From: an uncultured Clostridia bacterium
GTDB lineage: Bacteria > Bacillota > Clostridia > Oscillospirales > UBA644
Direction: 5' to 3'
DNA: 64,000 bases
Assembly (NCBI GenBank): GCA_948443805.1
Contig: CAOJUB010000001.1
Location: forward strand, 1 to 64,000
Part shown: positions 3,350 through 56,580 of the stretch, piece after piece
How positions within the stretch are numbered: the first letter of the stretch is position 1
How the letters are laid out: the number at the start of each line of letters is the position of its first letter
The notes under the pieces: generated by a model
Seen by the model: the letters and a program-made list of their open reading frames with translations, nothing else
Database searches by the model: none
Told to the model about the DNA's origin: nothing
Translations under genes and position numbers: made by a program

Positions 3350-4300
3350 ATGAAATGCAACAAATGCGGAACAGAATTTGACGGCACATTTTGCCCGAAT
3401 TGCGATACGCCGGCAACCTTTACTGTTTCTTCGGACAAAAAACCGAAGGAGAAAAAACCTCTTTATAAAAAATGGTGGTTCTGGGTGCTTTTGGTTCTGA
3501 TCGTCGGCGGTGTAATCGGCTGGCTTTTAAGCCCTGCTGATGAAGATGTTCCCGAAAACAATCCCGGGAGTTCCGTCAGCGAAGAAAATCCGGAGAATCA
3601 ACCGGGAAATTCGGCCGGTGAGGAAGAAAATCAGAAACCGGACGTTACGATAATTGATTTCAGTTCGATGACAAAAGAAGAAATCGCCGCCTGGGCTGCC
3701 GAGCATAAAATTACCTGTAAAGTTACGGCGGAGTATTCGGATACCATAGCGGAAGGAAGTTTAATCAGCCAGAGCAAAAAGGCGGATGAAACGGTAAAAG
3801 AGGGCGATACGATTGAGCTTACCTTCTCGATCGGAAAGAAACCTCCCGTGGAGTATATGAACGCCTTGAAGAAAGCGGAAAGTTATTCAAACAATATGAA
3901 TATGTCAAAAAACAGCATTTATCATCAGCTGACTTCCGAATACGGTGAGAATTTTTCTGAAGACGCCGCGCAGTTTGCAATTGAGCATTTGCAGGCGGAT
4001 TATAAAGCGAATGCGCTGGCAAAGGCGGAAAGCTATTCAAGCAATCTGCATATGTCTAAGCAGAAGATTTATAAACAGTTGATTTCTGAATACGGAGAGA
4101 AATTTACCGAAGAAGAAGCGCAGTATGCGATCGATACTTTACAGGCAGACTATAAAGCAAACGCACTGGAAAAAGCAAAAAGTTATCGGGATACCATGAA
4201 TATGTCCAAAGACCGTATTTACAAACAGCTGATTTCCGAACATGGGGAATATTTCACAGAGGAAGAGGCGCAGTTTGCGGTCGATCAGCTGGAAGATTAA
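3350..4300 (+). CDS. Zinc ribbon, transmembrane segment, PASTA-like domain and three Ltp repeats
   Basis: A 316-residue protein. It starts with a zinc ribbon (CNKCG at 3-7, CPNC at about 16-19) and a basic stretch, then one transmembrane helix (about 41-58). An acidic Asn/Glu/Pro-rich linker leads to a PASTA-like domain (about 100-165, ending in GDTIELTFSIG). Three near-identical repeats of about 48 residues follow (starting ALKKAESY, ALAKAESY, ALEKAKSY). The repeats match the Ltp family (PF07553), first known from a streptococcal phage superinfection-exclusion lipoprotein and common in clostridial surface proteins. The topology implies zinc ribbon inside and repeats outside. Strong ribosome binding site GGAGG before ATG 3350. 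Last gene of the operon. Confidence 0.8.
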   Translation: MKCNKCGTEFDGTFCPNCDTPATFTVSSDKKPKEKKPLYKKWWFWVLLVLIVGGVIGWLLSPADEDVPENNPGSSVSEENPENQPGNSAGEEENQKPDVTIIDFSSMTKEEIAAWAAEHKITCKVTAEYSDTIAEGSLISQSKKADETVKEGDTIELTFSIGKKPPVEYMNALKKAESYSNNMNMSKNSIYHQLTSEYGENFSEDAAQFAIEHLQADYKANALAKAESYSSNLHMSKQKIYKQLISEYGEKFTEEEAQYAIDTLQADYKANALEKAKSYRDTMNMSKDRIYKQLISEHGEYFTEEEAQFAVDQLED

Positions 4301-9975: not shown

Positions 9976-12054
9976 TTAGCCTTTGTTTTTGCCGCTGACA
10001 ATCGCTTCCTGAATCGATTTAGGAACTTCGGTGTAATGGCTGGGTTCCATGGTATAGTTTCCGCGGCCCTGCGTCTTGGAACGCAGGTCGGTGGAATAAC
10101 CGAACATTTCAGAAAGCGGAACAAACGCCGTAATCTGCTGTGCACCGGTCAGCGCTTCCATACCCTGGATCTGGCCTCTTCTTGAGGTCAGGTCGCCCAT
10201 AACGTCTCCCATATATTCTTCGGGAACGATAACAACGACTTTCATGATCGGTTCCATCAACACCGGGTTCGCTTCTTTCATGGCCTCTTTAAACGCCATA
10301 GAACCGGCGATCTTGAAGGCCATTTCCGAAGAGTCGACTTCGTGATAAGAACCGTCGTATAACGTGACTTTGACGTCAACAACGTTGTAGCCCGCAACGG
10401 TACCGCTGAGCATCGCTCCCTGGATACCGGCGTCTACAGCCGGAATGTATTCCTTCGGAATCGCGCCTCCGACAATTTTGTTGATAAATTCATAGCCTTT
10501 GCCCGATTCATTGGGCTCAACCGTGATCTTAACATGACCGTACTGACCTTTACCGCCAGACTGACGGGCATATTTCATGTCCTTGTCAACCGTTTTGCGG
10601 ATGGTTTCTTTATAGGAAACCTGCGGCTTACCGACATTGGCTTCCACCTTGAATTCACGGAGAAGTCTGTCTACGATGATCTCCAGATGGAGTTCGCCCA
10701 TGCCGGCGATGATGGTCTGACCGGTTTCCTGATCGGTATATGCCTTGAAAGTCGGGTCTTCTTCTGCGAGTTTCGCCAAAGCAACGCCCATTTTTTCCTG
10801 GCCGGCCTTGGTTTTCGGCTCGATAGCTACCCGGATAACCGGTTCGGGGAATTCCATGGATTCAAGAATGATCGGATGTTTTTCGTCACAGAGAGAATCA
10901 CCCGTGGTAACGTTTTTCAGACCGACGGCAGCGCAGATATCCCCTGCGTACACCTCTTCCACGTCTTCTCTGTGGTTTGCATGCATCCGGAGCAGTCTTC
11001 CGAATCTTTCCGAAGTCCCTTTGGTACTGTTAATGATTCCGGAACCCTTTGATATTTTACCCGAATATACGCGGAAGAAACAAAGTTTTCCGACAAACGG
11101 GTCTGTCATGATCTTGAAAGCAAGGGCAGAGAACGGTTCATTGTCGTCTGCTTTTCTTTCGTCCGGCTCTTTGGTGTCGGGATCCTCGCCTTTGATCGGC
11201 GGGATATCGGTCGGAGCCGGCATATAGTCGATAACCGCGTCGAGCAGCTTCTGTACGCCTTTATTCCGGTAAGACGTACCGCATACGACGGGAACCATGT
11301 GGTTGCTGATGGTAGCGGCACGGATTCCGGCTTTGATCTCTTCAATGGTCAAATCCTCGCCTCCGAGGTATTTTTCCATGAGAGCCTCGTCCTGTTCCGC
11401 AACGCTGTCAAGCAGTTCCGAACGGTACTGTTCGGCTTTGTCCTTCATGTCCTCGGGAATTTCTTCCTCGCGGATATCTTTGCCGAGGTCATCATAATAA
11501 ACGTAGGCCTTCATCTCGACAAGGTCGATGATTCCTTTGAAGGAATCTTCGGCGCCGATCGGAAGCTGAATGGGAACGGCGTTACACTTCAGCCGTTCTT
11601 TCATCATGGAAACAACGCGGTAGAAATCAGCGCCCATGATATCCATTTTGTTGACATACGCCATTCTGGGGACATGATACTGGTCGGCCTGACGCCAAAC
11701 CGTTTCCGACTGCGGTTCAACGCCGCCTTTTGCACAGAAAACGGTGACCGAACCGTCAAGAACTCTCAGCGAACGTTCTACCTCGACCGTGAAGTCTACG
11801 TGGCCGGGGGTATCGATGATATTGATTCTGTGACCTTTCCAGACGGCTGTGGTCGCAGCGGAGGTAATGGTGATACCTCTTTCCTGCTCCTGTTCCATCC
11901 AGTCCATGGTCGCGGAACCTTCATGCGTTTCGCCGATTTTGTGATTGATTCCCGTGTAGAAAAGAATTCTTTCGGTTGTCGTGGTCTTTCCGGCGTCTAT
12001 ATGTGCCATGATACCGATATTACGGTATAAGTTCAGGGGATGCTGTCTTGGCAT
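9976..12054 (-). CDS. fusA: Elongation factor G
   Basis: A 692-residue translocation GTPase. P-loop AHIDAGKT, switch region DTPGHVDF and NKMD are visible, and the C-terminal domains IV-V ([19 protein letters not shown]-like block) are intact. It moves tRNAs and mRNA through the ribosome after peptide bond formation and works in recycling with RRF. Normal length. It lies 26 bases after rpsG and 52 before tuf, in the conserved str order. Only one EF-G gene is seen here. Confidence 0.98.
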
Positions 12055-21248: not shown

Positions 21249-21265
21249 TTTCCGAAAAAAAATTT

Positions 21266-21620
21266 GTAGCCGGCGCAATCGCGGGAGCAGTGCCGAAAGG
21301 CCGCTTCTGAGGAAAGTCCGAGCTCCGATGGACAACGATAACGGATAACGTCCGCCGAGGGCGACCTCAGGGAAAGTGCAACAGAAAAGAACAGCGGCTT
21401 TGCCGCAATGGTGAAAAGGTGAGGTAAGAGCTCACCGGGAGGGTGGAGACGTCCTCCGTCTATGTAAACCCTATCGGGAGCAATACCGGATATAAGGCTG
21501 GGGGATTTCCCCGAACATGTCCATAGTGCCTTACAGGTAGCAGGAGGCAGCCGGCAACGGCTGTCCCAGATAGATGATTGCGGGGATGAAAATCTCACAG
21601 AACTCGGCTTACAAGGCTGC
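21266..21620 (+). ncRNA. rnpB: RNase P RNA, type A
   Basis: The conserved core is clear: the 5' block with GAGGAAAGTCCGAGCTC near 21311, the ACAGAAA block near 21382, and the 3' block with AGATAGATGATTGC near 21570 and ACAGAACTCGGCTTAC near 21598. The outermost P1 pairing is gtagcc with ggctgc. RNase P RNA is the catalytic part of the ribozyme that removes 5' leaders from pre-tRNAs. The ends are set by P1 and may be off by a few bases. A terminator follows at once. Confidence 0.95.
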
Positions 21621-21633
21621 AAAACAGAAATAA

Positions 21634-47142: not shown

Positions 47143-47344
47143 ATACGCGGAATCGGAATACGGCCGAGATATGGTATGTGTACATGAGATAGTGGCAATG
47201 TCGGAGGGAATCCTGCCGAAATGGATTGCCCAGCCGGGGTTCCGGAAAACCAGAAGATAACGCCGCCGTTTTTTACCGTTCGGGGCGTTTGGTAAATCGG
47301 ATCAGATAAATTGCATGATAAATAATGGAGGATTGGAGACCGAT

Positions 47345-49354
47345 ATGAAAGTAGAACTTTCCGTTTTGAACCTTCCCGGCGCATCGATCGAGCCGGAGAA
47401 CCCCCTGCCTCTTTTCCGGGACCGGCATCCCGACGGATACAGCGGAAAAGACGATACGCTGACGGAGGAAGAGCAGACGCTGCTGAATTATGAAGCGAAT
47501 TTCAGAATTCTTCCGTACTGTATGCAGGATCGCTATACCCGCGAGAAAAAACCGATGCAGTTAAAAACGGTGATTCTGGAAAACGACAAACTGAAAGCCA
47601 CTTTTCTTTGCGGATACGGCGCAAAGCTGCATTCTCTGGTCAAGAAGGAAACCGGGAAGGAAATTCTGTTTTCCAATACTGTGATCCAGCCCGGGAATTT
47701 GGCAATCCGCAATGCGTGGACTTCCGGCGGAATCGAGTGGAATATCAGTCAGCTGGGGCATTCCTTTACCACCTGTGAAAATATTTTTATGGCTAAAATG
47801 ACCGATAAAAAGCTGGGGGAATTTGTCCGTGTTTTTGAGTTCGAACGGCAGAAGGGACTTTTTTGGTACATTGATTTTTATCTTCCGGAAGGTTCGGAAC
47901 TTCTGTTTGCCTATGTGCGGATTGTCAACCCGAACGACACTGAGTCGCCCATGTACTGGTGGACGAATACGGCGGTTCCCGAAAGCGATAAGACCCGCCT
48001 TTTTTCTAATGTTTCCCGTTGTCTGGTTCTGAAAAACGGCGCGTGGACGGCAACCGATCTTCCGCATCATCCTGCGGTGCCCGGCGTGGATATTTCCTAT
48101 TCGAAAGGGTTTCCTTTTTCCAACGAATTCTTTTTCCAGACCCCGAAGGGAACCTCTATGCCGTGGGAAGCGGTCGTTAATGAAGACGGGACGCTTTTTT
48201 GCGAGGCGTCGACCGAATTGCTGCGATACCGGAAAATGTTTTGCTGGGGAAGCCATCAGGGCGGCCAGCATTGGCAGGAGTATCTTTCCGAGCCGAACAA
48301 GGGGTATTATGTCGAAGTGCAGGCGGGAATGGCGCCGACACAGCGCCACGGGCTGAAAATGCCGGCGAATACGGTATGGGATTTTGTGCAGGCGTTCGGT
48401 GAGACGGTAGCGCCGGAAGAAAGCCATTCGCCTGATTGGAACAAGGCGAAAAAAAAGGTTGAAAAAGCGGTTAAAAAGCATATCAGCGAGAAAAAATTAT
48501 ATAAAATGCTGGAAAAAGGCAGAAGCCTTTCCGAAAAGACGCCGTCGGATTTTCTGAATTTCGGCAGCGGGTGGGGCGCGCTGGAGACCGAACGGCTGGC
48601 ATTGGAAGAAAAAAGCGTGCCGCAGGGATTTTATTTCCCTTCTTCTTCTATGGGCGAACCGCAAATGGCATGGCTTGGTTTGCTCCGGAACGGCGTGCTT
48701 TATGAAAAAGAAGAACATGATCTTCCTTTTTCCTGGATGGTGCAGCCCGCATGGCGTAAAATTCTGGAAGAAAGCCTGGAAAAACAGGAAAACCGAAATT
48801 GGTTTTCGCTGATGCATCTGGGCAATATGCTTTATGAAGATTTTCAGGAGGAAGCCGCAGCGGCTCTGTGGGAGGCTTCGCTTGAAAAGAAACCGACGCA
48901 GTGGGTTTACCGGAATCTTGCCGTGAAAGCCGATCAGTTCGGAAGAAAAGAGCAGGCGCTGAGTTATATGGAGAAAGCCTATGCGCTGGAAAATTCTTTC
49001 TGCGACGCCGGTTTTTATGAAGAATATTTCAAATTGCTTTCCGAACAGGGCGATTATGAGAAAATCTGGCAGGCGATTCAGACAATGCCGGTTTCATTCC
49101 AGAAATTGCACCGGATGCAGATTATTGCCGGCCAGGCGGCGTTGGCAACCGATAACCTTTCTTATGTTGAACCGATTTTTGAGACCGAAAACGCCGTAAT
49201 CCGCGAAGGAGAATTGACGCTTGTGGATATGTGGTACCGTTATTCTGCAAAAAAATTGGCCAAGGAACGCGGTGTGGAATATTCCGACGAACTGTATGAA
49301 GAAGCGAAAAAACTCTGCCCGCCGCCCAAGAATGTGGATTACCGGATCAATTAA
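47345..49354 (+). CDS. DUF5107 / TPR protein, mutarotase-like
   Basis: 669 residues from ATG 47345 (GGAG upstream; an ATG at 47315 lacks one). About 50-370 resembles DUF5107, a galactose-mutarotase-like beta-sandwich expected to bind sugars (TSGGIEWNISQLGHS, WWTNTAVPES, FCWGSHQGGQHWQEYLS). The last third has tetratricopeptide-like helices (YRNLAVKADQFGRKEQALSYMEKAYAL). No signal peptide, so cytoplasmic. Likely a carbohydrate-related protein; the reaction is unknown. Its last codons (PPKNVDYRIN) are the first unit of the tandem array that follows. Confidence 0.8.
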   Translation: MKVELSVLNLPGASIEPENPLPLFRDRHPDGYSGKDDTLTEEEQTLLNYEANFRILPYCMQDRYTREKKPMQLKTVILENDKLKATFLCGYGAKLHSLVKKETGKEILFSNTVIQPGNLAIRNAWTSGGIEWNISQLGHSFTTCENIFMAKMTDKKLGEFVRVFEFERQKGLFWYIDFYLPEGSELLFAYVRIVNPNDTESPMYWWTNTAVPESDKTRLFSNVSRCLVLKNGAWTATDLPHHPAVPGVDISYSKGFPFSNEFFFQTPKGTSMPWEAVVNEDGTLFCEASTELLRYRKMFCWGSHQGGQHWQEYLSEPNKGYYVEVQAGMAPTQRHGLKMPANTVWDFVQAFGETVAPEESHSPDWNKAKKKVEKAVKKHISEKKLYKMLEKGRSLSEKTPSDFLNFGSGWGALETERLALEEKSVPQGFYFPSSSMGEPQMAWLGLLRNGVLYEKEEHDLPFSWMVQPAWRKILEESLEKQENRNWFSLMHLGNMLYEDFQEEAAAALWEASLEKKPTQWVYRNLAVKADQFGRKEQALSYMEKAYALENSFCDAGFYEEYFKLLSEQGDYEKIWQAIQTMPVSFQKLHRMQIIAGQAALATDNLSYVEPIFETENAVIREGELTLVDMWYRYSAKKLAKERGVEYSDELYEEAKKLCPPPKNVDYRIN

Positions 49355-49735
49355 AGTCCTGGCGGGCATCCCGTCGCCCAAGAATGTGGATTACCGGATC
49401 AATTAAAGTCCCGGCGGGCATCCCGTCGCCCAAGAATGTAGATTATCGGATCAATTGAAGTCCCGGCGGGCATCCCGTCGCCCAAGAATGTGGATTCCCG
49501 GATCAATTAAAGTCCCGGCGGGCATCCCGTCGCCCAAGAATGTAGATTATCGGATCAATTGAAGTCCCGGCGGGCATCCCGTCGCCCAAGAATGTGGATT
49601 ACCGGATCAATTGAAGTCCTGGCGGGCATCCCGTCGCCCAAGAATGTAGACTACCGGATCAATTAAAATTCCGGCGGGCATCCCGTCGCCCAAGAATGTG
49701 GATTACCGGATCAATTAAAATTCCGGCGGGCATCC
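49323..49735 (+). repeat. 52-bp direct tandem repeat, about eight copies
   Basis: Units begin at 49323, 49375, 49427, 49479, 49531, 49583, 49635 and 49687, each opening cgcccaagaatgt and holding ggatcaatt and a ggcgggcatcc block. The first unit contains the last codons and stop of the DUF5107 gene. Copies differ at a few positions only (g/a after aatgt, tta/ttg, tcct/tccc/ttcc). The block cggcggg/cccgtcg can form a 7-bp hairpin at each junction. There are no unique spacers, so this is not CRISPR. Confidence 0.95.
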
Positions 49736-49815
49736 GGTTTTAAGGAAATATACTTTTCCGGCAGCCGGGATTGATCGCGTGAAAGCGCTGTCTGTAAAAA
49801 AAACGAAAAATACAA

Positions 49816-49852
49816 AAAAGATTCCACCGGAAAAACCGGCGGAATCTTTTTT
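49816..49852 (+). terminator. Terminator after the tandem array
   Basis: aaaagattcc-a-ccgg pairs with ccgg-c-ggaatctttt around aaaaa, then a T run. It would end transcripts of the DUF5107 gene that run through the array. Confidence 0.85.
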
Positions 49853-49864
49853 GGCAAATATTTC

Positions 49865-49893
49865 TTGACGTTTTGGATTTTTCGTGCTATACT
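49865..49893 (+). promoter_or_regulatory. Promoter of the cytidylate-kinase-like gene
   Basis: TTGACG at 49865-49870, 17-bp spacer, TATACT at 49888-49893. The leader is about 185 nt. Confidence 0.75.
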
Positions 49894-50084: not shown

Positions 50085-50711
50085 ATGGAGAATTTTGTTA
50101 TTACAATCAGCCGCTGCTGCGGCGGCAATGGATCCGCCGTTGGCAAATTACTGTCTGAACGGCTTGGCGTTGCTCTGTACGACAGGAATTTGCTAAACCT
50201 TGCCTCGGAGGCGAGCGGGATTAATCAGGCGCTGTTTGAGCAGGCGGATGAGAAAGTGAAGAATCCGCTGCTGTTTAAAATTTCGAAGAGCGTTTATCAC
50301 GGAGAACTGATTCCTCCTGGGCGGGGAGATTTTACGTCGGATAAAAATTTATTCAACTATCAGGCGAAGGTTCTTCGGGAGTTGGCTTCGCAGGAATCTT
50401 TTGTTGTTGTCGGCCGGGCCGGCGGTTTTGTCCTGAAAGACCATCCCCGGATTCTCCGGTTGTTTGTTTATGCGCCTCATGATATCTGCGTATCCCGGAT
50501 GATGGAGCTGATGGGGCTGAATGAACGGGAGGCGGAAGCGCTGATTGCGCAGCGTGACAAAGACCGGGGAGAGTATCACAAGTATTTTACCGGCGAGGAC
50601 TGGCTGGATTTCCGGAATTATGATCTTTGCCTGAATACGGCTTCTCTTTCCTATGAAGGCTGCGTAGAGCAAATTTTGTATTATCAAAAGCTGAAATTCG
50701 GATCGCTCTGA
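50085..50711 (+). CDS. Cytidylate-kinase-like family protein
   Basis: 208 residues of the P-loop nucleoside-monophosphate-kinase-like family PF13189. The nucleotide loop is the relaxed ISRCCGGNGSAVGKLLSERLG seen in this family; VVVGRAGGFVLKDH and the DKDRGEYHKYFTGEDW block are typical. The substrate is not established; these proteins are paralogues of Cmk common in Clostridia. AGGGGTAAG upstream. Single gene with its own promoter and terminator. Confidence 0.85.
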   Translation: MENFVITISRCCGGNGSAVGKLLSERLGVALYDRNLLNLASEASGINQALFEQADEKVKNPLLFKISKSVYHGELIPPGRGDFTSDKNLFNYQAKVLRELASQESFVVVGRAGGFVLKDHPRILRLFVYAPHDICVSRMMELMGLNEREAEALIAQRDKDRGEYHKYFTGEDWLDFRNYDLCLNTASLSYEGCVEQILYYQKLKFGSL

Positions 50712-56390: not shown

Positions 56391-56419
56391 TTGACAGCGT
56401 GCGGAAAATATGATATACT
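56391..56419 (+). promoter_or_regulatory. Promoter of rplJ-rplL
   Basis: TTGACA at 56391-56396, 17-bp spacer, TATACT at 56414-56419. Confidence 0.9.
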
Positions 56420-56425
56420 GTCTCA

Positions 56426-56580
56426 GTCCTAAGACAATAGGTGCTTTCGCTTAAACATACCTATCGAGGAAGAGTTTCTATTATTTTTCTGGAACAAACA
56501 GGTGATTATTGCTCTTTCATAACGGTAGTTGTGAAAGAGCTTTTTTTGGAAAGCGCTGATTTTATATTCCGGGAGGTGAA
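56426..56580 (+). ncRNA. Ribosomal L10 leader with attenuator
   Basis: The leader before rplJ contains the L10 leader core: AAGACAATAGGTG near 56431 pairing with ACCTATCGAGG near 56460. A terminator-like hairpin follows: gctctttca (56511-56519), tgaaagagc (56532-56540), T7 (56541-56547). L10(L12)4 binding to the core is known to control such operons in Firmicutes; the hairpin indicates premature termination. Confidence 0.85.

Follow-up and report, generated by a model that had tools for sequence, protein, structure and literature searches.

A 52-bp tandem array at the 3' end of a DUF5107 gene of an uncultured Clostridia bacterium: a likely lineage-specific minisatellite founded by the gene's own last codons

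We identified an array of eight 52-bp units that runs on from the last codons and the stop codon (49352-49354) of a DUF5107 gene, within a 64,000-nucleotide stretch of contig CAOJUB010000001.1 from an uncultured Clostridia bacterium (hereafter the window). TRF described it as 8.0 copies with a period of 52, 93% matches, 0 indels and a score of 717, and a unit-by-unit alignment confirmed the eight-unit structure that a sequence-only reading of the window had reported. The end which that reading had assigned, 49735, was recovered exactly, but the start had been placed at 49323, 5 bases later than the position returned by TRF (49318). With 8.0 near-identical head-to-tail units, the array is by definition a bacterial minisatellite (units of 10-100 bp, at least 3 copies). 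We consider it likely that this minisatellite, a candidate VNTR, is lineage-specific, that it grew by tandem duplication and by slippage or unequal recombination, and that it is tolerated because it lies past the stop codon but ahead of the transcription terminator. The features of the locus are as follows.

47315-49354, + strand: gene for a DUF5107 and TPR-like protein, 679 aa, ending ...CPPPKNVDYRIN-TAA (ORF, Pfam, PDB relative)
49316-49368, + strand: inverted repeat TGCCCGCC / GGCGGGCA around the gene end, 8-bp stem
49318-49735, + strand: tandem array, 8.0 copies of 52 bp (TRF, unit alignment)
49323-49374, + strand: unit 1, the founder, made of the last 10 codons, the stop codon TAA and 20 nt of 3' sequence (unit alignment, conserved C-terminus)
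49360-49376, + strand: first of seven junction hairpins, 7 pairs and a 3-nt loop, recurring every 52 bp to 49672-49688
49375-49735, + strand: units 2-8, copies past the stop codon (unit alignment)
49394-49600, + strand: remnant of a duplication of two units (104 bp), seen as 103 bp repeated exactly at an offset of 104 (49394-49496 / 49498-49600)
49813-49853, + strand: hairpin terminator with A and T runs, 78 bases past the array (called on the - strand by the scan)
49865-49893, + strand: promoter-like site for the next gene, 10 of 12 positions, consensus match only
50085-50711, + strand: next gene, cytidylate-kinase-like (Pfam PF13189, E 7.5e-50)

The protein encoded by the DUF5107 gene matches Pfam PF17128 (E 6.3e-32), and its nearest PDB relative by sequence is 5cd6, a 'TPR-domain containing protein' (E 6.8e-13). 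Unit 1 encodes its C-terminal signature, ...PPPKNVDYRIN. Homologues were taken from the best 80 of 94 loci in species genomes and from three loci of relatives (L003-L005), giving 83 loci, 81 after L004 and L005 had been dropped for a reversed match; the alignment reached the protein end in 75 of them. Within this sample of 75 complete ends, the pattern [ILV]D[FY]R is found near the C-terminus in 65 and is without a match in 10, and it is directly preceded by PP in 56. Because the C-terminal signature is conserved in distant homologues, the array was founded by the gene end, and the seven other units are copies of it. Judging from these alignments, PPPKNVDYRIN is an old coding motif from which the repeats were copied, and not the reverse, in agreement with the growth from the 3' end of the gene that had been proposed earlier.

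The locus is a clear example of a minisatellite whose origin can be traced, its founder being the conserved end of a gene: which way the array grew, where its first junction probably lay and a subsequent step of two units are all visible. The end sequences suggest that the first tandem duplication would have joined a downstream GCATCC to an upstream CCCGCC through a 2-bp overlap (CC). Slippage during replication, or unequal recombination, may then have multiplied the unit, and in at least one step two units would have been copied together, units 2-3 giving rise to units 4-5.

The pattern of variation among the units bears on this history. Eight sites vary, and no stretch longer than 103 bp recurs exactly. 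Units 3 and 5 have the same sequence, T38 is common to units 1 and 6, and A34 and T36 are common to units 7 and 8. The sharing of single-base variants by non-adjacent units (3 and 5, 1 and 6), which had been remarked on earlier, is therefore real and mostly reflects one two-unit duplication: units 2 and 3 were probably duplicated together, because units 3 and 5 are identical and the 103-bp repeat recurs at an offset of 104. Furthermore, all four allele combinations occur at four site pairs (14/31, 14/34, 14/36 and 31/38), which calls for either recombination or recurrent mutation. The recombination between copies hinted at by the sequence-only reading is thus plausible, but recurrent mutation could also yield such pairs.

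A change in copy number would spare the protein, as had been proposed. However, the reason put forward, that 52 is not a multiple of three, does not hold: the protein would be unchanged at any unit length because the extra copies sit behind the stop codon. No open frame runs through the array, as stops inside it break every frame on both strands.

We also considered that units may have cycled through the coding slot, with gene conversion or unequal crossing-over swapping unit 1 with later units, so that selection on the end of the protein would have left its mark on the copies. This would be an addition to the minisatellite reading rather than a full alternative to it. Five sites vary in the codon part of the units. 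Read in the frame of the gene, four of the changes are silent (GTG/GTA, GAT/GAC, TAC/TAT and TAA/TGA) and the fifth is Tyr to Ser; the other two frames that were read have 1 and 2 silent sites out of 5. For a set of four transitions and one transversion, four or more silent changes have a probability of 0.035. This mild oddity, which hints that units had passed through the coding slot, is not predicted by pure drift of non-coding copies and counts against our preferred explanation; the four-gamete violations at the site pairs listed above are likewise consistent with cycling. However, the silent-site test was chosen after the variants had been seen and bears on five sites only, one of them replacing Tyr with Ser, and units farther from unit 1 are not steadily less like it. 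We therefore regard cycling as rather unlikely, and give the same low credence to the broader view that the array keeps a reserve of gene ends with slow turnover, the coding-end unit of the DUF5107 gene being swapped by unequal recombination or gene conversion. If this view were true, the units past the stop codon would keep marks of purifying selection on the conserved C-terminus.

Given the strong terminator hairpin downstream, the array is probably transcribed as part of the 3' UTR, which it would lengthen by only ~364 nt. The reading of this terminator on the + strand rests on its fold and sequence; on that strand, too, the hairpin has a run of T at its end. Promoter-like sites such as the one ahead of the next gene were not found above chance (5 versus 4.1 expected).

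In this position, the array could be a 3' UTR element: its seven hairpins, rich in GC, could bind a protein or retard degradation of the DUF5107 mRNA in the 3'-to-5' direction. The earlier statement that a hairpin lies at each junction is correct for all seven internal junctions, with an exact match in five, but the last end of the array has a 4-bp stem only. In the hairpins that follow units 1 and 6, a T at the first position gives a T-G pair, and this C38T change, the only variant in the stem, thereby retains pairing. Each of these 7-pair hairpins, which lie ahead of the terminator, has a folding energy of about -9 to -11 kcal/mol. Nevertheless, a stem as long occurred in 228 of 2000 shuffled units (11%), and the array (49355-49735) folds no better than dinucleotide shuffles, with z scores of +0.2 on the + strand and +0.8 on the - strand (59 and 80 of 100 shuffles, respectively, folding at least as well). 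A longer stretch that includes the terminator gave a z score of -2.4, which probably reflects mostly the terminator, because the array without it folds like the shuffles. No Rfam family matched at the array; elsewhere in the window, Rfam matches were an RNase P RNA (21263-21627) and a ribosomal protein L10 leader (56410-56555).

Together with the absence of the array from 58 related genomes, the folding scores differ from what a conserved structured 3' UTR RNA would show, and we consider a 3' UTR element quite improbable. The role as an mRNA stabiliser or RNA target suggested earlier is accordingly unsupported, the fold being that of shuffles and Rfam giving no match, and simple slippage fits best among the three functions that had been offered. 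No function is indicated for the array as a minisatellite: its effect on the mRNA is probably small and, given the lack of signal, it is most likely near-neutral.

An assembly artefact, or a wrong copy number, is very unlikely even though the genome is a draft (metagenome-type) assembly of 35 contigs, because the 8 variable sites, the 103-bp maximum repeat and the location of the array inside a 305,486-base contig suggest that usual k-mers could resolve it.

A search for the unit elsewhere in the genome, which had been suggested as a check, returned one place only, both for the whole array and for a three-unit query. The array was found in none of 58 related genomes, its genus being represented by this genome alone, and the three-unit query was absent from the 19 other genomes of the family, all of them among the 58. 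Should it vary between strains, this candidate VNTR could serve as a strain marker. Plasmid and phage searches gave no match, nor did the unit pattern in IMG/VR, which argues against a mobile or phage origin. A 19-base junction pattern had one IMG/VR match (L092), roughly what chance would be estimated to give in so large a collection.

A TRF survey (score of at least 60) of 17 stretches of this genome, the window plus 320 kb more and in total 384 kb out of 1.81 Mb, returned 7 arrays, among which the 52-bp array had the top score. The sole other array with at least 3 copies in these 384 kb was a 36-bp x 6 array at the start of a contig (L100). A 123-bp x 2.4 tandem repeat with 96% matches lies across an ORF start at 10375-10672 of another stretch of this genome (L098). 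In the window, three diverged 150-bp (50-residue) repeats are located at 3860-4278, at the 3' end of what looks like an ORF; we take them to resemble the Ltp-type lipoprotein repeat.

REP and BIME elements consist of a palindromic unit dispersed over many intergenic places. The array shares with them palindromes located behind a gene; unlike them, the array and the three-unit query occur at one genomic place. According to PMC2734929, the MIRU-VNTR/ETR loci of M. tuberculosis are tandem units between genes that vary between strains, MIRUs occupy 41 genomic places, the ETR-F array, with units of 55 and 79 bp, begins 40 bp past a stop codon, and one locus is linked to expression of the downstream gene. 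Compared with the loci described there, the 52-bp array has a similar unit length and intergenic tandem units, but it was founded by the final codons and stop of the gene itself, it has no copies elsewhere in its genome, unlike the MIRUs, and, unlike the expression-linked locus, it is separated from the next gene by a terminator and a promoter-like site. Being confined to one place, the array does not count as an interspersed family of the MIRU or REP type. A search of the open-access literature with few terms found no title or abstract start on a minisatellite that originated from the final codons and stop of a gene, and we make no claim that such a case is unreported.

Similar arrays were looked for in the 3' flanks of 73 DUF5107 homologues. 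Duplications across the stop codon were found in a Spirochaetia homologue (65 bp x 2.2, L066) and in a Clostridiaceae homologue (20 bp x 2.2, L042), and arrays just past the gene were found in Cohnella (50 bp x 14, at 5113-5824 of L021) and just past the stop codon in Diplocloster (21 bp x 4, L034). Growth of this kind at gene ends is thus not confined to the window, with the L066 and L042 duplications being comparable cases in unrelated species. The Cohnella and Spirochaetia cases resemble the 52-bp array in their position at the end of a homologous gene or just past it, but their unit sequences look unrelated by eye, and the three arrays presumably had independent origins.

Whether DUF5107 gene ends are a hot-spot for duplication is unproven. 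An earlier count at a score of at least 60, with the window included, gave 4 stop-spanning arrays in 751 ORFs, 3 of them at DUF5107 genes. With the window left out, a TRF score of at least 50 and a period of at least 15, stop-spanning arrays were present at 2 of 100 DUF5107 ends versus 2 of 694 ends of other ORFs, an excess that is not significant (Fisher P 0.079); ORFs with less than 150 bases of room were excluded, L082, L083 and L134 were dropped as duplicates, and L001, L002, L006, L007 and L088-L092 were not included.

Inverted repeats as triggers of the arrays gave a mixed result and are not claimed. The best perfect stem at the array start was matched or exceeded at 1 of 150 random places from the same source for the Cohnella array, 5 of 150 for Diplocloster, 43 of 150 for the Spirochaetia duplication and 147 of 150 for that of Clostridiaceae. 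For the window the count was 14 of 150, a stem as long as the 8 bp bracketing the gene end occurring at that many random places, and this inverted repeat may be due to chance. In Cohnella sp. SGD-V74 (L021, 5099-5824), a 15-bp perfect inverted repeat lies behind the DUF5107 gene, and the array, of 14.2 copies of 50 bp, starts in its right arm.
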